From IMG/VR virus record IMGVR_UViG_3300022910_000010, positions 1 through 40,876 of that record: a stretch of DNA of 40,876 bases, one strand, 5' to 3'. The DNA is from a virus. Of the stretch, positions 25,611 to 40,876 are shown one piece after another. The notes under the pieces were generated by a model. That model had not been told where the DNA came from and searched no databases. It worked only from the letters and a program-made list of their open reading frames with translations. The first letter of the stretch is position 1. Every line of letters begins with the position of its first letter. The translations under genes and the position numbers were made by a program.

Positions 25611-27175
25611 GGCGCTCCTACGTAGCTGGTGGTGGCCGTGGCGGCCTTGATCGTCTTGCCCTTGTTCAGGAAGTAGCGCACACCGGTGACGGCGGCGTCC
25701 ACCACGTCATCGTACTGAGCCCGGGGGAATCCCACCGCCTGCTCCTCCAGGGTGGCGAACCGTTCCACGTGGAACACCCTCCCGCGCTGCCAGTGCTCCA
25801 GCTCGGTGGCGAACCGCACCTCTTTCGGCTCGGTGGTGTGCACGGTCCGAACCGCCACGTTGGGGATGCCGCTGAAGACGTCTTTCCAGAGATCCCCGCC
25901 CTGGTTGGTCTCCACCACGATGACCCTGATCTCCGGGAACCGGGCCAGGAGCTTGAGCACATGGTCCTTCAGGTGCTGGCCGGTGAGCTTGACGCCGGCG
26001 GAGTGCTTGATGACGCAACCGGAAGGAGACACGAGTCGAGCAGGGTTGCGAGCAACAGGACGCGCACGTAGCTCGGGGAGTAGGCCAACCACGGCGAGCC
26101 CGGTGTAATCGCTGGTCTTACGGCTGGTAACTGCTGGGTCGACAGCCAGGATCGTACGAGTGCAATGCCGTCCTTCGGGCTCTCCATAGCGGAAGTCCTC
26201 CCTCACCCAGTAGACGCCCTCACGGGCCATCGGGTCGTTGTCGTAGTTCTTGGCGAACGATCGGGTGTGCCGCTGGGCCTGGAGCCACGCGGTCGGCCAC
26301 TTCTGCGGCCAGATGCTGACCTCGGTCCCGTCGTCCAGGGTGACCAGGGGCCGGTGGTGATGCGGCACCACCTTCTCGTCCTTGATCCAGTCAGCGGTCT
26401 CGATGCCGTTGGCCGCCTTCACCAGCTGGTGCATGATCGAGCCGGGCATGGTGACGGTGCCGACGAACACCACCCGGGCGTAGATGTTCAGCGGAAAGAT
26501 GGCGTCCGTGACGGTGCCCAGGCGCTTCTCCGCCTGGTCGGCCGAGTAGTTGGCCTCGTCCGGCTCGATGTCGTCCAGGATGAGCAAGTCGGGCCGCTTG
26601 TCGCCCACCTTCATGCCGAGCACGGCGGAGTCGATCCCGCGCGCGGCGAACACCCAGCCGTTGGCCTGGTGCAGCATCCCGGCCCTGTCTGCCACGGTGG
26701 TGCCGGCACGACGTCGGGCCGGTGCGCAGAGCTTGGGATAGTCGTGCTGGAGCAGGGCGTTGGTCTCCAGCTCCCGCTTCAGCGTGGACAGGTGGCTCTC
26801 GGCCTGGCTGGTGGCGTTGGCGAACGCGGCGGCGAACTTGCTGTGCCCGTTGGCGGCGGCCCAGACCGGCAGGATGAGGAACCACCAGGTGCTCTTGCCG
26901 CACTCGCGGGGAGCGATCTCGGCCGTGCGGTGCTCCATCGGCCCGGTGACCGGCTCGGCCCAGGCCAGGGCCTGGGTGGCCCAATCAAAGTGTGGCTGGG
27001 CCCAGGAGATGTTGCCGTCCCGGTCCTTCAGGTGGTGGCTGAAGTAGATGAGGGCGAACGCCACCGGGTCGGCACCGAGCGCACGACGGATCGCCGCCTG
27101 GCTCTGGGCAGGCTGGAACACCAGATCGACGATCTCGTTGTCCAGCCGCTTGAACCAGGCGGCGTCCCACCTCAC
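25607..27175 (-). CDS. Terminase large subunit
   Basis: This 522-aa protein has an N-terminal ATPase with a Walker A-like PRECGKST near residues 88-95 and a Walker B LLILDDIEPDE near 197-207. A C-terminal RNase H-like nuclease begins with AVDPAVTSRKTSDYTG near 342, where the first Asp is a metal ligand. It cuts concatemeric DNA and pumps it into the head through the portal. The start is GTG 27175. The unusual Cys in the Walker A loop is kept within the general GKS/T pattern. Packaging type (cos or headful) cannot be decided from the protein alone. Confidence 0.95.
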   Translation of the reverse strand: MRWDAAWFKRLDNEIVDLVFQPAQSQAAIRRALGADPVAFALIYFSHHLKDRDGNISWAQPHFDWATQALAWAEPVTGPMEHRTAEIAPRECGKSTWWFLILPVWAAANGHSKFAAAFANATSQAESHLSTLKRELETNALLQHDYPKLCAPARRRAGTTVADRAGMLHQANGWVFAARGIDSAVLGMKVGDKRPDLLILDDIEPDEANYSADQAEKRLGTVTDAIFPLNIYARVVFVGTVTMPGSIMHQLVKAANGIETADWIKDEKVVPHHHRPLVTLDDGTEVSIWPQKWPTAWLQAQRHTRSFAKNYDNDPMAREGVYWVREDFRYGEPEGRHCTRTILAVDPAVTSRKTSDYTGLAVVGLLPELRARPVARNPARLVSPSGCVIKHSAGVKLTGQHLKDHVLKLLARFPEIRVIVVETNQGGDLWKDVFSGIPNVAVRTVHTTEPKEVRFATELEHWQRGRVFHVERFATLEEQAVGFPRAQYDDVVDAAVTGVRYFLNKGKTIKAATATTSYVGAP

Positions 27176-34961: not shown

Positions 34962-35171
34962 CTATTCCGCGAACGGGTCGTCCGGGACGGGCGTCACCAT
35001 CGCCTCGATCTCCGAACGCTTGAACCGCACCCACTGCATCCCGCCGATCTTGTAGCGGGTGATCCGGTGCTCGTTCGCCCACCGGTCGATCGTGCGCACG
35101 TCGACATCGGCCAGCTCGGCCGCCTCCGATCGAGTGATCATGCCCTTGTCCTGCTCGGTGCTCTCGTCCAC
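34962..35171 (-). CDS. Excisionase-like / MerR-type HTH DNA-binding protein
   Basis: GTG 35171 has AGGAG 6 bases upstream, giving 69 aa. The frame is open farther upstream, but those codons cover the promoter. Residues 11-55 form a winged HTH of the excisionase/HTH_17 type (ITRSEAAELADVDVRTIDRWANEHRI, then YKIGGMQWVRFKRSEIEA). There is no integrase in the genome. It is the first gene read from the leftward promoter and faces the rightward promoter, so a regulator of the divergent control region is more likely than an excisionase. Confidence 0.8.
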   Translation of the reverse strand: MDESTEQDKGMITRSEAAELADVDVRTIDRWANEHRITRYKIGGMQWVRFKRSEIEAMVTPVPDDPFAE

Positions 35172-35173
35172 GG

Positions 35174-35193
35174 GGTGCTCCTGCTCTCGATGT
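35174..35193 (-). promoter_or_regulatory. Leader motif copy before the HTH gene
   Basis: On the minus strand ACATCGAGAGCAGGAGCACC precedes GTG 35171 and carries its AGGAG ribosome site. The CATCGAGAGCA core also occurs in the late-operon leader. Confidence 0.55.
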
Positions 35194-35207
35194 CGCTGGT
35201 CAGTGTC

Positions 35208-35236
35208 AAGGTACAGGCCGGAACGAGGATAGACAA
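35208..35236 (-). promoter_or_regulatory. Leftward promoter of the divergent control region
   Basis: On the minus strand: -35 TTGTCT (35231-35236), 17-base spacer, -10 TACCTT (35208-35213). Transcription would begin near 35201 and give a leader of about 30 bases to GTG 35171. It drives the replication arm. Confidence 0.65.
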
Positions 35237-35238
35237 GG

Positions 35239-35267
35239 TTGCACATGTCGGGCCCGCTCGGTAGGCT
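35239..35267 (+). promoter_or_regulatory. Rightward promoter of the divergent control region
   Basis: -35 TTGCAC (35239-35244), 17-base spacer containing CGGGCCCG, -10 TAGGCT (35262-35267). Its -35 begins 2 bp from the leftward -35, so one bound protein could control both. Transcription should start near 35275, just before a leader motif copy. Confidence 0.7.
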
Positions 35268-35276
35268 CCAGCCACT

Positions 35277-35296
35277 ACCCATCGAGATCGGAGCAC
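35277..35296 (+). promoter_or_regulatory. Leader motif copy at the start of the rightward arm
   Basis: ACCCATCGAGATCGGAGCAC lies 3 bases before ATG 35300 and starts at the predicted transcription start. It contains the Shine-Dalgarno GGAG. Confidence 0.55.
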
Positions 35297-35299
35297 GAC

Positions 35300-35479
35300 A
35301 TGGACCTGTTCCTCTACATCATCGGCGCGCTGGCCTGGTTCTCCGTCCTGGGCCACCTCGGCGCCGACCGCAAGGCCGGCACGGGGCCGCGCCACCGGGC
35401 GCCGGGCCTGCCCCGGATGCGCCGCTCGGGCACCGCGCCCCGCCGCCGGGCCACCCCCGACTACTCCCTGGCCGCCTGA
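35300..35479 (+). CDS. 59-aa small membrane protein, first gene of the rightward arm
   Basis: ATG 35300 lies just after the leader motif and its GGAG site. The product has an N-terminal hydrophobic helix (LFLYIIGALAWFSVLGHL, residues 3-20). A very basic, Pro/Arg-rich tail follows (RHRAPGLPRMRRSG, RRRATP) that would lie in the cytoplasm or bind nucleic acid. The stop shares a base with the next ATG (TGATG). No family is recognised. Confidence 0.65.
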   Translation: MDLFLYIIGALAWFSVLGHLGADRKAGTGPRHRAPGLPRMRRSGTAPRRRATPDYSLAA

Positions 35480-35571
35480 TGAAGACGCTGGCCGTCATCG
35501 TCGGTGCCGCGCTCGCGGCCTGGGCCCCGATCGTCCTGATCGGTGTCTGGCTCTACCTGGTGCTGAAGTGA
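35479..35571 (+). CDS. 30-aa single-TM micropeptide
   Basis: The product is almost wholly hydrophobic (TLAVIVGAALAAWAPIVLIGVWLYLVLK) with a Lys at each end, as expected of one membrane helix. The start and the stop each share one base with the neighbouring gene (TGATG). The coupling and the clean TM pattern support expression. Function unknown. Confidence 0.55.
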   Translation: MKTLAVIVGAALAAWAPIVLIGVWLYLVLK

Positions 35572-35774
35572 TGGGCCAGCCTGGTCGGCGTGGCCACCCG
35601 GTCGATCCGCGCAACTTCTTTCCCCTCACGTTCAGTGAGCGGCGTGTCCGCATCCAGCGCTACCACGGTGCGGAGAAGATCGTCTACCGCCGAGTGTCCC
35701 GGAAAATCGCCCTCAACCCGGATCCGATGACGCTGGGTGAGGTCCTGCTCCGAGGCATCAAGGAGGGGGCATGA
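35571..35774 (+). CDS. 67-aa basic hypothetical protein
   Basis: ATG 35571 shares a base with the previous stop; GTG 35568 is an alternative. The product is basic and soluble, with a compact centre (FPLTFSERRVRIQRYHGAEKIVYRRVSR) and helical end. The Arg/Lys spacing would suit DNA or RNA binding, but no motif is recognised. Its stop overlaps the next ATG (ATGA). Confidence 0.65.
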   Translation: MGQPGRRGHPVDPRNFFPLTFSERRVRIQRYHGAEKIVYRRVSRKIALNPDPMTLGEVLLRGIKEGA

Positions 35775-35881
35775 GCACGCGGCAGAGGATGCGGGAGATC
35801 GCCCTGGCCGCCGTGATCGGTCTGCCGATCTGGTGGACCGGCTGGCAGCTACTGGACGGCCTGAAGGGAGCACTGCTGTGA
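35771..35881 (+). CDS. 36-aa single-TM micropeptide
   Basis: ATG 35771 overlaps the upstream stop (ATGA), with GGAGGGGG just before it. A short basic N-terminus (STRQRMRE) is followed by a hydrophobic helix with three Trp (IALAAVIGLPIWWTGWQLL). The TGA overlaps the next GTG (GTGA). The strong ribosome site and coupling support it as a real gene. Function unknown. Confidence 0.55.
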   Translation: MSTRQRMREIALAAVIGLPIWWTGWQLLDGLKGALL

Positions 35882-36033
35882 ACGACAACGGACTGATGGA
35901 CCAGCCGACCGCCTTTCGGCTCGCTCTCCGGGCCTCCAAGATGCACCACCACCGGTACCGGGTATGGGGGTACCGGTCCGGTACCGGCCACTGGCGCTAC
36001 CTGATCTCTCGCCTCCCGGACGTGCCGAGGTGA
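35878..36033 (+). CDS. 51-aa basic hypothetical protein
   Basis: GTG 35878 overlaps the micropeptide stop. The product is rich in Arg, His and aromatic residues (RASKMHHHRYRVWGYRSGTGHWRYLI), suggesting nucleic-acid contact or a small beta fold. Its stop overlaps the helicase GTG at 36030. No family is recognised. Confidence 0.55.
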   Translation: MNDNGLMDQPTAFRLALRASKMHHHRYRVWGYRSGTGHWRYLISRLPDVPR

Positions 36034-37718
36034 GCCCGGTCAACCGGGACGCCGGCCTGTTCACCCTCCGGCCGTACCAGAACCACACCGTGGCGGCCAA
36101 CCGCGCGGCGCACCTGGGCCGTCGGCGCCCGACCGGGACCGGGGTGGCCAACCGGACCGCCAACGTCCTGGCCACCGGCCTGGGCAAGACGGTGATCGGC
36201 TCCACCATGGCGTCCCTGGCGCTGGAGCGGATGGAGCGGACCATCGTCCTCACCCATCGCCAGGAGCTGGCCGACCAGTGGATGCAGAAGCTGCACAGCC
36301 AGCACCCCACCGCGTCCATCGGCCTGGTGAAGGGGGGCCGGAACGAGTGGGACGCCGACATCGTGGTGGCCAGCGTGCCCTCCATCGGGACCGAGCGGCA
36401 GTTGCTCCGCCGCCGGATCCCGGCCGACAGGTTCGGCCTCGGCATCGCGGACGAGTGCCACCACTCGGCGGCCGACACCTGGCAGACGGCCATGTCGTAC
36501 CTCGGGGCGTTCCGGGGGATGCCGTGGTCCGGCTTCACCGCCACCCTGACCCGGGGCGACTCCCGGGCGCTCGGTGACACCTGGCAAGAGATCGTCGCGG
36601 ACTACGACATCGGGTTCGGGGTGCGCAACAAGGACCACAACGGCCACCCGTACCTGGTGAAGCCGCGTGGCATCCGGGTCCGGGTCAAGGACCTGATGCT
36701 TGACGAGGTGAAGCGCTCCCGGGGCGATTTCCAGGACGAGGACCTCGGCGCCGCGATGGTGGACGCTGACGCCGGCAACACGATGGTGAGGGCGTACCAG
36801 GAGCACCTGGCCGGCAAGCGCACGGCGGCGTTCGCCCCGTCCGTCTACTCCGCCAAGCGGTTCGCCGAGACGTTCTCCGAGGCCGGCATCCCGACCGAGG
36901 TGATCACCGGGGCCACCCCGGACGAGGCCCGGAAGGCGATCTACGAGCGGTTCCGGCTCGGCACCACGCTGGTGATCTGGAGCGTCGGCGTGCTCACCGA
37001 GGGCTGGGACGCCCCGTGGTGTGAGGGCATCCTGAACGCCCGGCCAACCGAGTCCTCCGGCCTCTACATCCAGATCGTGGGCCGGGGCCTGCGGCCGTTC
37101 CCCGCCGGCGGCAAGACCGAGTGCATCGTCCTGGACGTCGTCGGCTCCTCGGCCAAACACCGGCTCATCAGCCTGAAGGATCTGGCCGGGCACGAGGGCG
37201 ACCCCCGGGAGACGATCGCCAGCTACACCGACGAGGACGGCACCGAGGAGCTCACGGGCGAGTACATCGACCCGAACGTCAAGGACTGGCTGGAGGGTGA
37301 GCTGGTCGCCGAGGAGGTGGACCTGTTCGCGGACTCCGATTCGTCCTGGCTACAGACGGACGGCGGTGTCTGGTTCATCCCGACCAGGGAGTCCTACTGG
37401 TTCCTGGCGCACCCGCCGAACGAGGACGGGTTCCGGCTCGGCCGCATCCCGGCCAACGGCGGCCGGGCTTACTGGGCCGAGCGGGAGCTCACCCTGGAGG
37501 CCGGGATGGCCTGGGCTGAGCGGTACGCCGGAGACGAGGATCCGTCGATCTCCAGCCGGAGCGCGTCCTGGCGCAAGTCCCGGCCGAGCCTGGCGATGGC
37601 GGCCAAGGCCCAGCGGCTCGGTATCCCCTACGAGGGGATGCGCCAGGGCGAGCTCGGCGACCTGATGACGGTCGGCCACGCGAACATCGTGCTGCGCAAG
37701 TACGCGGCCAGGGTGTAG
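36030..37718 (+). CDS. SF2 DNA helicase (DEAD/DEAH-type)
   Basis: GTG 36030 overlaps the upstream stop and places the protein (562 aa) just before its conserved LRPYQ motif. Superfamily 2 motifs appear in order: Walker A ATGLGKT near residue 50, DECHH box near 141, FTATLTR (motif III) near 171, and QIVGRGLRP (motif VI) near 348. The C-terminal ~170 residues are acidic and then basic helical. Such phage helicases act in DNA repair, recombination or origin remodelling. The frame is open 66 bases upstream, within the previous gene. Confidence 0.9.
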   Translation: MSPVNRDAGLFTLRPYQNHTVAANRAAHLGRRRPTGTGVANRTANVLATGLGKTVIGSTMASLALERMERTIVLTHRQELADQWMQKLHSQHPTASIGLVKGGRNEWDADIVVASVPSIGTERQLLRRRIPADRFGLGIADECHHSAADTWQTAMSYLGAFRGMPWSGFTATLTRGDSRALGDTWQEIVADYDIGFGVRNKDHNGHPYLVKPRGIRVRVKDLMLDEVKRSRGDFQDEDLGAAMVDADAGNTMVRAYQEHLAGKRTAAFAPSVYSAKRFAETFSEAGIPTEVITGATPDEARKAIYERFRLGTTLVIWSVGVLTEGWDAPWCEGILNARPTESSGLYIQIVGRGLRPFPAGGKTECIVLDVVGSSAKHRLISLKDLAGHEGDPRETIASYTDEDGTEELTGEYIDPNVKDWLEGELVAEEVDLFADSDSSWLQTDGGVWFIPTRESYWFLAHPPNEDGFRLGRIPANGGRAYWAERELTLEAGMAWAERYAGDEDPSISSRSASWRKSRPSLAMAAKAQRLGIPYEGMRQGELGDLMTVGHANIVLRKYAARV

Positions 37719-37736
37719 GGTTGTACGTAGATAGAC

Positions 37737-37752
37737 ACCCGTCGACAGAGGA
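37737..37752 (+). promoter_or_regulatory. Leader motif copy before the 77-aa gene
   Basis: ACCCGTCGACAGAGGA lies 7 bases before ATG 37760 and includes AGAGGA. It is a one-mismatch copy of 3357-3372, and the GTACG-AGAT bases upstream are shared too. A weak -10-like TAGGGT (37716-37721) overlaps the helicase stop. Confidence 0.6.
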
Positions 37753-37759
37753 GCACACC

Positions 37760-37993
37760 ATGCATTACGTAGTGTCGATTCAGGTCCAGCGCGTGGACCA
37801 CGCACCGGCCAACATGTCCAGGGCCGTCACGAGCGGAGAGCCCAAGCGCACTATCACCGAGCTGGCCAAGGTCACGGTGCGCTCGGCAGAGTTCCAGCGG
37901 GCCATCATCGGAGCCAAGGCGCACCTGGACCTGGTGGACGACTCGGTCACCGACGATACCCAGGGTGAGGGCAAGGTTTACCGCGACCGTTGA
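37760..37993 (+). CDS. 77-aa hypothetical protein
   Basis: ATG 37760 is set by the leader motif and its AGAGGA site; the frame opens at 37721 but without a ribosome site. The product has an N-terminal strand (HYVVSIQVQRV), a helical centre (ITELAKVTVRSAEFQRAIIGAKAHLDLV) and an acidic end. No family is recognised. It stands alone between helicase and nuclease genes, with its own leader, so it may be made at a different level from them. Confidence 0.7.
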   Translation: MHYVVSIQVQRVDHAPANMSRAVTSGEPKRTITELAKVTVRSAEFQRAIIGAKAHLDLVDDSVTDDTQGEGKVYRDR

Positions 37994-38031
37994 TCAACCG
38001 TCCATAGATCCACCCACAGCAGGAGGCGCAC

Positions 38032-39957
38032 GTGCCCAGTTTCGCCAGTACGGACGGACCCAAGCAGGCCGTCCCGATCAAGAACCACCGCTACCAGATC
38101 CCCCGTTACCCGTTCGACGGCCCGATGAACCCGAACGCTCCGGCCGGCGTGGCCGGCACCGGGATGCTGGTGCCCTGGACCCGCGTCTCCACCATCCTCG
38201 ACACCCACGAGGACAAGGAGGGGGTCTTCAAGTGGACCAAGCGCCTGGTGGTGAAGGGCCTCGGCGCCCGGGAGGACCTCTACGCGCTGGCCGCCGCCAC
38301 CAGGCTGGAGGACAAGGCCGGCCTGCTGAAGATCGCTGACCAGGCGTTCGACTACGCCAAGGGCCAGGCCGCCTCCAACCTCGGCACCGCCCTCCACAGT
38401 TTCCTGGAGCGCTGGGTGGAGGGCGACAAGGACCTCGTCATCCCGGCCCAGTGGAAGGGTGACGTGGCCGCCGTGATGGCGGCGTTCCAGGACGCCAACA
38501 TCCGCCTCCGCCCGGACCTTCAGGAGATGTGTGTCGTCCGGCCCGACCTGAAGGACGGCGACGCCGGCGGCCTGGCCGGACGGCTGGACCTGGTCGTGGA
38601 GATGCTCAATCCCGAGACCGGTGAGTGGGAGCTCATCCTGGCCGACTACAAGACGGGCTCCGACCCGCTCCTGTACGGCTCCTGGAAGATCCAGCAGCAA
38701 CTCGGCCTGTACGGCACCGGCTGGGCGGTCTGGGATGGTACGCACTGGCGGCCCATGCCCAAGATCCGCCGGGACAAGATCCTGATGGTGCACGTCCTCC
38801 CGGGCCAGGCGTCGTGCCAGATTCACATCGGCGACGTCGACCCGGTGGCCCTGGAGGAGGACCTGGCCGCCGCCTACCGCACCCGCCGCCGCCGTAAGGA
38901 GGCCAAGAGGGCGTGGCGTCCGCTGGTGACGGTGGAGGACGGCGTGATCGTCGACGACACGGCCGAGCGCGCCGTAACAATTGATTTCGACTCTCCGGAA
39001 TCGGTGGCAGCAGATCAGCAGGCCGCCGAGCGAAGGGCCGAGCGCGCCGCCGCCACGGTGGCCCGGGTGGCGGCCGAGTCGAACCCGAACACGGACGGGG
39101 ACGACGAGGGCCTGGTGTTCGGAATGAAGCCTGGCACACCGGCGCTGGTCCCCGAGGAGCCTAAGGCCGGCGTCCAGGGTGAGCTCACCAGGCTGGCTCC
39201 GCTGGCCGGCCCGGGTGAGCGCGGGTGCGGCGTCTGCGGCCGGAAGGGCCACCGCCGGGGATCGCCGAAGTGCCTGGGCGAGAACGACCCGCACCTGACC
39301 AAGGTGACTGATCAGCAGGAGTCGTTCCGACGGGAGAACGAGGGGCCGGAGTTGCCCGATGGCGTCCAGGCGCATCCGGATGGCGGGACGATCGAGCACG
39401 CGGACGGGGTTCACCCCCGGCACGGCGGAATGCCGACTCCAGAGCCGGCCCGGTGCCGGTGCACCGCCCGGGCCGGTGGCTGGACTGCTCCGGCGGACGG
39501 CGAGGGCCCGTGGGTGTGCGGTGATTGCGGCCTCCCGTCCAAGCTCGGCGTGCCGCTGGCGGTCCGGACCGGGGAGCAGGCAGCCGAGCGCGATCAGCAG
39601 GCCTACGACTACGCGGCCGACACCATCAGCCCGGAGTTCGCCGCCGCGCTGGCCCCGAATCACCTCCGGGAGGCGGACGCTATCCGAGCCGAACGGTGGT
39701 CCGCCGATCGGCACGAGGGCGACCCTGCCCAGGTGGCCGAGCTGGCCAGTGCCACCGAGGAGCCGGACCCGTTCGACGAGGACGGCTCGGACGCCCTCAC
39801 CCCGGCCCAGCCCACCTGGCGGATGCGCATCCGGGAGGCCAAGGACAAGGCCGAGCTCCGGACCATCCGGGCCGAGGCCATGGCGGCAGACGAGTGGACC
39901 CAGGAGCTCACCCAGGCCGGCCTGGAGCGCATCAAGGTCCTGGCCCAGCAGGGCTAG
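38032..39957 (+). CDS. RecB/Cas4-like PD-(D/E)XK nuclease with zinc knuckles
   Basis: This 641-aa protein starts at GTG 38032 (AGGAGG upstream). The first ~300 residues carry PD-(D/E)XK exonuclease features: GTALHSFLERW near 117-127, GRLDLVVEM near 182, and LADYKTG near 202-208 holding the catalytic D-x-K. A Cys cluster near 398-413 (CGVCGRKGHRRGSPKC), a second zinc-like pair near 480-505 (CRCTARAG, VCGDCG) and a helical C-terminus near 590-641 follow. Phage Cas4/RecB-like exonucleases act in recombination and end processing. Its first residues (MPSFAST) resemble those of the next gene. Its TAG stop forms the next -35. Confidence 0.85.
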   Translation: MPSFASTDGPKQAVPIKNHRYQIPRYPFDGPMNPNAPAGVAGTGMLVPWTRVSTILDTHEDKEGVFKWTKRLVVKGLGAREDLYALAAATRLEDKAGLLKIADQAFDYAKGQAASNLGTALHSFLERWVEGDKDLVIPAQWKGDVAAVMAAFQDANIRLRPDLQEMCVVRPDLKDGDAGGLAGRLDLVVEMLNPETGEWELILADYKTGSDPLLYGSWKIQQQLGLYGTGWAVWDGTHWRPMPKIRRDKILMVHVLPGQASCQIHIGDVDPVALEEDLAAAYRTRRRRKEAKRAWRPLVTVEDGVIVDDTAERAVTIDFDSPESVAADQQAAERRAERAAATVARVAAESNPNTDGDDEGLVFGMKPGTPALVPEEPKAGVQGELTRLAPLAGPGERGCGVCGRKGHRRGSPKCLGENDPHLTKVTDQQESFRRENEGPELPDGVQAHPDGGTIEHADGVHPRHGGMPTPEPARCRCTARAGGWTAPADGEGPWVCGDCGLPSKLGVPLAVRTGEQAAERDQQAYDYAADTISPEFAAALAPNHLREADAIRAERWSADRHEGDPAQVAELASATEEPDPFDEDGSDALTPAQPTWRMRIREAKDKAELRTIRAEAMAADEWTQELTQAGLERIKVLAQQG

Positions 39958-39983
39958 ACAGGGTCGTCAACCCTGTGTAGAGT
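39955..39983 (+). promoter_or_regulatory. Promoter with an operator-like palindrome in its spacer
   Basis: -35 TAGACA (39955-39960, overlapping the stop codon of the nuclease gene), 17-base spacer, -10 TAGAGT (39978-39983). The inverted repeat ACAGGGT-CGTCA-ACCCTGT (39958-39976) fills the spacer and part of the -35. Transcription would start near 39990 and read a long structured leader. Confidence 0.75.
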
Positions 39984-39989
39984 TGCACT

Positions 39990-40270
39990 TAGGCGGTCGC
40001 GGAGATCGCTTAGCGGTCAGGGACTTGAGCCCTGGCGGCGGTGATCGGAGCCTGGCGGACGCGCTGGGCCGGTGTTCAGGTGATGAGCCTGGTACTGGGT
40101 GGTTCGAATCCGCCCCCGATCGCGACGGACGGCACGCCGTGACTGGCACCGGGAGACCGGCGGCCGTCCGCCAGAGTTCCCCGTCACGGGAACGCGAGAC
40201 GGAGCAGGGGTGAGAGCGGGTGAGCCTCCCCTCACGGCGGAGTCCGACCGCCCCTGCTCCGGCACTATGA
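39990..40270 (+). ncRNA. Structured non-coding RNA or leader
   Basis: No gene fits in the 368 bases between 39958 and 40325. Downstream of the promoter at 39955-39983 the transcript can form many stems. A hairpin CAGGG/CCCTG lies at 40018-40034. GTCGCG near 39996 can close with CGCGAC at 40121-40126. GGACGGC near 40127 can pair with GCCGTCC near 40165. A perfect 10-bp GGAGCAGGGG/CCCCTGCTCC pair lies at about 40201-40260 around an inner GTGAG/CTCAC hairpin. It could be a free RNA, a regulatory leader of the gene at 40326, or contain a packaging or replication site. Confidence 0.45.
40043..40122 (+). other. tRNA-like element with canonical T-arm
   Basis: A T-arm of 5 bp with loop TTCGAAT (40098-40114) is preceded by a 5-base variable-type gap. 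Before that is a 5-bp arm with a 7-base loop (40076-40092). An acceptor-like stem GATCGG/CCGATC (40043-40048 with 40116-40121) encloses them. A D-like arm GCCT/GGGC is possible. The anticodon-like loop lacks the required T33, the acceptor has a mismatch, the D region is too long and no CCA is encoded. It is best seen as a tRNA mimic or decayed tRNA, not a working tRNA gene. Confidence 0.3.
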
Positions 40271-40325
40271 TCGACCAGCACGATGATCCCCGATCCGAGA
40301 TCCCCGATCTACGAAAGAGACGCAG

Positions 40326-40876
40326 ATGCCCAGTTTCGGAAGCACCGGCTCAAAGAACACCACCACGGTCCCTAAGCTCGGCTCCACCGGTGGTGGAGCC
40401 TTCATCAAGCCGGCCAACCTGGTCGGATGCCTGGTCATCATCGACCCGGTGCGCATCGACCGGATCGAGCCGTTCGTCCCCAAGGGCCAGGAGAAGGCCA
40501 AGGACGCCGGTCTCAAGGACCGCATGGTGGCCGACGTCGTCTCGCTGGCCGGAGACGTCAAGGGCGAGTACCCCGGCGTCTGGTGGACCCAGTCGCTCCT
40601 GGTCCGTGAGGGCAAGCGCATCCTCAACATCACCGACCAGACGCGCGAGCACTCCGAGGAGGCCCGCAAGACCGGCAACATGGAGGCCTACGTGGCGGAC
40701 GGGCCCAAGCTGGACGAGGTTCTCGCCGGCCGCCTGCTCCGCAAGCCGAAGAAGGACTTCCTGGACGTCTTCCCCACGCCGGCCGCGCTGGAGGAGGCGT
40801 TCGCCAAGAACGCCAAGATGGTCCCGAACAACTCCTACACCTGGACCGTCGAGACGCTGAACGACGAGGACCGTGA
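40326..40876 (+). CDS. 207-aa unknown protein, N-terminal part (ends at base 200)
   Basis: ATG 40326 follows a purine-rich site (GAAAGAGACG). The frame runs off the end and continues at the start of the sequence to TGA 198-200, 207 aa in all. The N-terminus is Gly/Ser/Thr-rich (PSFGSTGSKNTTTV). A central region has strand-rich sequence (GCLVIIDPVRIDRIEPF, then YPGVWWTQSLLVREGKRILNIT), and the end is very acidic. The strand-rich core plus acidic tail, and the position after the nuclease, would suit a single-stranded-DNA-binding protein, but the match is not firm. It has its own promoter and long structured leader. Confidence 0.8.
   Translation, partial: MPSFGSTGSKNTTTVPKLGSTGGGAFIKPANLVGCLVIIDPVRIDRIEPFVPKGQEKAKDAGLKDRMVADVVSLAGDVKGEYPGVWWTQSLLVREGKRILNITDQTREHSEEARKTGNMEAYVADGPKLDEVLAGRLLRKPKKDFLDVFPTPAALEEAFAKNAKMVPNNSYTWTVETLNDEDR
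40750..40876. repeat. Terminal overlap, right copy (circular contig joint)
   Basis: This stretch is identical to bases 1-127. It is the second copy of the assembly overlap that closes the genome. One copy should be removed before any length or gene count is stated. Confidence 0.9.

Follow-up and report, generated by a model that had tools for sequence, protein, structure and literature searches.

A recurrent, probably non-decoding tRNA-like leader before phrog_870 and phrog_1911 genes in phages

The gene-free gap that precedes position 40,326 in a 40,876-nt stretch of viral DNA (IMG/VR record IMGVR_UViG_3300022910_000010, positions 1 to 40,876; hereafter the window) very probably carries, judged by its sequence, a member of a recurrent class of tRNA-like leader elements that do not decode. 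An earlier note on this DNA had proposed a promoter-driven structured RNA, either a small RNA or a leader of the gene at 40,326. That part of the proposal is supported by a promoter that is conserved and recurs in other loci and by the recurring position before one gene family, while the tRNA-like domain itself had been overlooked. Positions 1–127 of the window exactly match 40,750–40,876; with this 127-bp terminal direct repeat, the contig probably represents a phage genome in full, of the circular-assembling type. We infer actinobacterial hosts from homologues in phages of Streptomyces, Mycobacterium and Rhodococcus.

The gene-free gap, its promoter and its neighbours

The gap comprises 368 bp (39,958–40,325), as first described, between the stop of the exonuclease ORF at 39,957 (PHROG 466; 38,032–39,957, + strand) and the ATG at 40,326. 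It is the longest stretch of the window without a frame-plot gene except for 1–343, which carries the 3′ end of the 40,326 gene. A coding explanation for the gap was rejected because 39,958–40,325 contains no credible gene, and cultured phages had no sequence similar to it at the DNA level.

The downstream gene (40,326–40,876, + strand) continues at window base 1 because the contig carries the terminal repeat. Read across that repeat, its product is a phrog_870-like protein of 207 aa with a pI of 5.0, consistent with the acidic protein already suspected there, and matches PHROG 870 (function unknown). Sequence search gave no convincing solved homologue. Identification as a single-stranded DNA-binding protein (SSB) by fold was not adopted: the model of the window protein was too poor (pLDDT 51), and a phrog_1911 model gave weak matches, many of them to OB-fold-containing MCM proteins (best E 0.006, TM about 0.2).

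A sigma-70-like promoter, TAGACA-17-TAGAGT (39,955–39,983, + strand), overlaps the exonuclease stop codon. It has 9 of 12 matches and is the sole such site within 35,000–40,876 (0.4 expected), and its position predicts a transcript start near 39,990. Inside its spacer lies an operator-like palindrome, CAGGGTcgtcaACCCTG (39,959–39,975, + strand), which occurs once in the window, against an expectation of 0.12 when one mismatch is allowed. The proposed promoter and palindrome were thus both recovered, and both extend to a relative with the same neighbouring genes, represented by one IMG/VR contig (L001/L004). The helicase and downstream proteins of this relative are 92% and 95% identical to those of the window, and its neighbouring genes mostly share 87–90% DNA identity. 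Its gap opens with the same promoter, in which the palindrome arms are kept and the palindrome loop is changed, and the −10 element and the bases downstream of it are identical. The relative's gap also ends with the same leader as the window, and the middle cannot be aligned.

A tRNA-like cloverleaf in the window and its relative

A tRNA-like cloverleaf can be drawn at 40,043–40,122 (+ strand) of the window. Its acceptor stem (40,043–40,049/40,115–40,121; GATCGGA/CCCGATC) forms 6 of 7 pairs, and its T-arm (40,098–40,114; GGTGGTTCGAATCCGCC, with GGTGG and CCGCC enclosing TTCGAAT) forms all five T-stem pairs, one of them G-U. The discriminator is G40122. The window thus has, by sequence, the 7-bp acceptor and the 5-bp T-arm with a TTCRANN loop that characterise tRNA, and the two would form an acceptor/T-arm stack. 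The arm at the anticodon position (40,077–40,091; CAGGtgatgagCCTG, CAGG tgatgag CCTG) lacks the 5-bp stem and 7-nt loop with U33 of a tRNA and offers no readable anticodon. Against shuffled sequences, the cloverleaf folds with a z-score of −3.35.

The tRNA model RF00005 gave no match to the window at E ≤ 10, and none at the gathering threshold or at 29 bits and above. In random DNA as long as the window, a loose T-arm/acceptor pattern appears 0.78 times on average, and it occurs in 0.1% of random 342-mers. Because the copy in the window is silent with RF00005 and the loose pattern is common by chance, the call rests on position and on the relative. In the same gap of the relative, at a position homologous to that of the window element, a cloverleaf (L001:4740–4809) scored 41.6 bits, above the RF00005 cut-off, and ARAGORN reported it as a tRNA of unknown type with an unreadable anticodon. 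Upstream of it lies a second, D-arm-poor tRNA-like element, which scored 26.2 bits with mascRNA (RF01684; cut-off 42.5). No Rfam 15 family matched the window at its gathering score; sub-threshold matches to tRNA-Sec (17.1 bits, cut-off 47) and Chloroflexi-1 (21.7 bits, cut-off 80) were dismissed. The ARAGORN tmRNA search of the window found none, and relaxed ARAGORN settings (-ps85) were of no use in GC-rich DNA, where they gave many false calls per contig.

The cloverleaf stands among other stems, all on the + strand. Two hairpins open the leader (39,990–40,040; z −3.6) and end in CTGGCGGCGGT just before the tRNA-like domain. Directly 3′ of it, right after the discriminator, follows a 53-nt block (40,123–40,175) with the hairpin CGGACGGC...GCCGTCCG. 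Every base of this block is identical in the relative, for which the chance is about 0.001 at a background identity of 88%. An exact search for the core of the block elsewhere retrieved just the one relative in IMG/VR and nothing in GTDB genomes. A small hairpin, GTTCCCcgtcacGGGAAC, occupies 40,176–40,193, and a domain closed by the stem GGAGCAGGGG...CCCCTGCTCC spans 40,201–40,260 (z −2.9). The perfect 10-bp stem highlighted by the earlier note among several others is this one, GGAGCAGGGG/CCCCTGCTCC, in which 40,201–40,210 pairs with 40,251–40,260; the stem is real, and the relative matches it only in the outer pairs, GAGCAG/CTGCTC, the interior being different.

Several leader motifs recur outside the cloverleaf. 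The hairpin motif GAGTGAAGTCSGAC is found at L010:11545, L043:11586, L049:10766 and window 40,235–40,251, where the window's GGCGGAGTCCGACCGCC resembles GGCGGAGTGAAGTCCGACCGCC of L010. The motif AAGTAGC...GGCGGCGGCCGTAAAACGYTGG (L059:10841, L085:12001, L090:12878, L094:12334, L096:12870) stands directly 5′ of the tRNA-like element in L085, L094 and L096, a place where the window has just CTGGCGGCGGT. Between the tRNA-like element and the start codon, GAAGTCCATCCCGAACC..AAACGGACAC is conserved at L059:11047, L063:11022, L079:10297 and L083:6162. The motif GGGATAGCAGTTGGGCCG-hairpin-...GTAGCTGCGCGG, with the same 68-nt span, lies before phrog_1911-type genes in three diverse phages (L077:6812, L158:4788, L160:4890). 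An Rfam search of leaders L096 and L158 returned no match at E ≤ 1.

Folding energy alone is not decisive, because the whole region folds merely 2.55 s.d. better than shuffles (z −2.55; sub-domains −2.8 to −3.6). That value, the ease with which GC-rich DNA folds and the location in the replication module agree with a chance fold or a DNA element, in which the GC-rich hairpins would do nothing as RNA or would mark a site for packaging or for the origin of replication. We regard this explanation as barely credible in view of the promoter just upstream and of the one-strand positional enrichment and covariation described below. The packaging site, once put forward for this region, is unlikely because the terminase lies about 14 kb away: its sole matches are near window 26,200–26,930, and the element sits at 40 kb, within the replication module.

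Recurrence of the element and loss of its anticodon arm

Eighty contigs were gathered by helicase homology, blind to RNA, and about 76 diverse loci were searched with a strict pattern (a 5-bp T-stem without mismatch, a GTTCRA loop and a paired acceptor). The pattern gave 40 matches in 28 of the approximately 76 loci, the number of independent cases being smaller than 28 because some loci are near-duplicates (L043/L049/L050; L085/L094/L096), while most sequences cannot be aligned with one another. All matches lay on the + strand within 2.2 kb after the exonuclease (151 kb in total). The remaining 1.41 Mb held none, with zero on the opposite strand, zero in the 6.5 kb upstream and zero further downstream. 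Rfam tRNA matches in the exonuclease-bearing loci behaved alike: all were on the coding strand, 105–2000 bp past the exonuclease stop, except in L082, which had one weak match just after the downstream gene. Many loci besides L001 exceeded the Rfam tRNA cut-off, and an unsupervised 9-mer count found GGTTCGAAT in 23 of 82 leaders and in none of 82 control stretches.

The next gene belonged to phrog_870 or phrog_1911 in the cases tested, and the element typically lay 60–430 nt before the start codon, so that position and strand are fixed before one gene family, as expected of a cis-acting leader. Some leaders contain two to four tandem copies. A promoter-like site stood at the exonuclease stop in 19 of 79 loci; in a control segment, one locus of 79 had such a site. 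Among seven new contigs fetched by the downstream protein alone, three carried the element by pattern (L149, L152, L157) and two by eye (L154, L168); the other two were without it.

The distribution is patchy. The cultured relatives of the downstream gene that we inspected (mycobacteriophage clusters, TM4, ReqiPine5 and the Streptomyces phages Mischief19 and Abt2graduatex2) had no tRNA-like element. With matches in just 28 of the approximately 76 loci and none in these mycobacteriophage and Streptomyces phage relatives, the element is dispensable or replaceable; going by these sequences, other leader structures may take its place or it may have been lost. Mischief19 and Abt2graduatex2 have 11–13 bp GC hairpins in the phrog_870-like leader instead of a tRNA-like element (L104:2339–2488, L105:2324–2491), and in Mischief19 there is also a promoter, TTGACA-17-TATAGT, whose spacer contains a palindrome. 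A helicase scan of bacterial genomes yielded one prophage (Kitasatospora), which lacked both the exonuclease and the downstream gene.

We parsed 28 gap elements against 40 control tRNAs from other parts of these contigs (L108–L147). Under the same strict rule, a canonical anticodon arm (5-bp stem, 7-nt loop, U33) was present in one element (L091) and in 25 of the 40 controls, and U33 was found in the best register in 7/28 and 36/40, respectively (p about 6e-8). The central arm of the elements measured 21–68 nt and contained new hairpins. The search does not predict this loss, since an intact anticodon arm is favoured by tRNA models. T-stem mismatches numbered 1/140 in elements and 1/200 in controls, and acceptor mismatches 11/196 against 4/280; because elements with whole acceptor and T arms are the ones that the search picks up, this intactness is partly expected. 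A covariation analysis in relatives had been recommended; in a homologous subgroup (n = 8), four acceptor/T-stem pairs had changed on both sides with pairing kept. The base after the discriminator was C in 24 of the 28 elements and in all 40 controls, which suggests that the 3′ end of the elements is matured as in tRNA. In the controls this C is encoded in every case and the full CCA rarely. In seven elements (L077, L085, L094, L096, L149, L152, L157), either the outer acceptor pair is a conserved C.A mismatch, resembling that of initiator tRNA, or the acceptor has 6 bp.

Ordinary phage tRNA genes that had inserted where they are tolerated and were degenerating there, losing the anticodon first, could leave similar remains. 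The copy in L091, which retains the canonical arm and could still decode, and those in L031, L040 and L079, with 5+7 arms without U33, would fit such decaying cargo. Simple decay is less likely because the acceptor and T stems are preserved: they are almost as intact as those of the control tRNAs and show compensatory changes. Moreover, the central arm is not merely broken but replaced by long new hairpins (up to 65–68 nt), and such relics occur nowhere else in the loci. We therefore regard decay as highly unlikely.

Possible functions and known counterparts

The acceptor and T-arm parts of tRNA are recognised by RNase P, RNase Z, the CCA enzyme and elongation factor without the anticodon. In the explanation that we prefer, the promoter at 39,955–39,983 would be dedicated to the phrog_870 gene and the gap would be the 5′ leader of its transcript; the element keeps these codon-independent parts without a working anticodon. 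Host tRNA-maturation enzymes would recognise it and cut the transcript, with RNase P acting on the 5′ side and RNase Z or exonucleases together with the CCA enzyme on the 3′ side. Cleavage would free a tRNA-like RNA and would leave the phrog_870/1911 mRNA with a structured 5′ end at a defined position and with a level of its own. Such processing is inferred, the RNase P cut from the shape of the element only, and we give it not quite an even chance.

The same leader might instead act uncut, its tRNA-like and other stems serving to control translation or transcript elongation once the downstream protein, or a host factor that binds tRNA, has attached to them. T4 gp32 exerts such control on its own leader. 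The downstream protein belongs to the replication module and is possibly an ssDNA-binding protein, although the OB-fold-like matches are weak. The recurrence before one gene family, the identical 53-nt block and the other strong stems or motifs in leaders without a tRNA-like element all agree with cis-regulation of this kind. However, the conserved parts are a generic tRNA elbow and acceptor, the acceptor sequences are diverse and do not form one binding sequence, and tandem copies are present in some leaders. We consider this alternative rather unlikely.

An improbable third possibility is that the freed RNA acts in trans, as a decoy or substitute that would draw off host defences directed at tRNA or occupy tRNA-handling enzymes, loss of the anticodon making it immune to anticodon nucleases. 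In many contigs the gap element is the only tRNA-like present, which would suit this role, and precedents have been described: phage tRNAs with anticodon-loop mutations were proposed to evade host tRNases (PMC10264068), and phage tRNAs are reported to counter retron effectors (PMC11555353). In these known cases the tRNAs still decode, whereas the gap elements keep neither identity nor anticodon, and a trans-acting RNA would have no need to stand always before the same gene.

Two known leader or processing RNAs resemble the element in part. mascRNA/menRNA (RF01684) is a tRNA-like RNase P substrate within a longer RNA; it differs in serving 3′ end processing of a eukaryotic lncRNA, and no common descent is implied. 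The T4 gp32 autoregulatory leader is structured, contains a pseudoknot and precedes a phage replication gene, as the window leader does. It is not tRNA-like, the protein family is a different one, and an SSB role is here only putative. With canonical tRNA (RF00005), the gap elements share the acceptor stem, the T-arm TTCRANN, usually a D-arm with GG, and the C after the discriminator; they differ in that 27 of 28 have no usable anticodon arm and the central arm is 21–68 nt long. Unlike phage-encoded tRNAs, they are fixed before phrog_870/1911, and the window copy is below all tRNA thresholds. The evading phage tRNAs (PMC10264068) likewise are RNAs of tRNA type from phages and carry changes in the anticodon loop, but those are decoding, clustered and changed at single points, whereas in the gap elements the arm is lost or replaced and the copies stand singly or in small number within a leader. 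The pseudo-tRNA tRNAOther of Bacillus cereus (PMC3399842) is also a tRNA-shaped domain outside translation within a longer transcript; it differs in having a Trp anticodon, in lying on a chromosomal island and in showing no link to a phage replication gene.

In the open-licence literature we came across no account of a class of leaders like this one. The presence of tRNAs in phages is commonly attributed to codon supply or to the replacement of tRNAs cut by host defences. A non-decoding tRNA shape at one site before one gene family in diverse phages points to an RNA-processing or regulatory signal. We tentatively propose, with slightly less confidence than for processing itself, that anticodon-free tRNA mimics are widespread in DNA phages, that they stand in the phrog_870/1911 leader and borrow the host tRNA-maturation machinery to process or regulate the phage's own mRNA, and that the window RNA is one divergent member. 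The class could account for some phage 'tRNA-undetermined' calls, and the recurrence of comparable tRNA mimics at this site in many unrelated phages suggests that the tRNA shape is used beyond codon reading.
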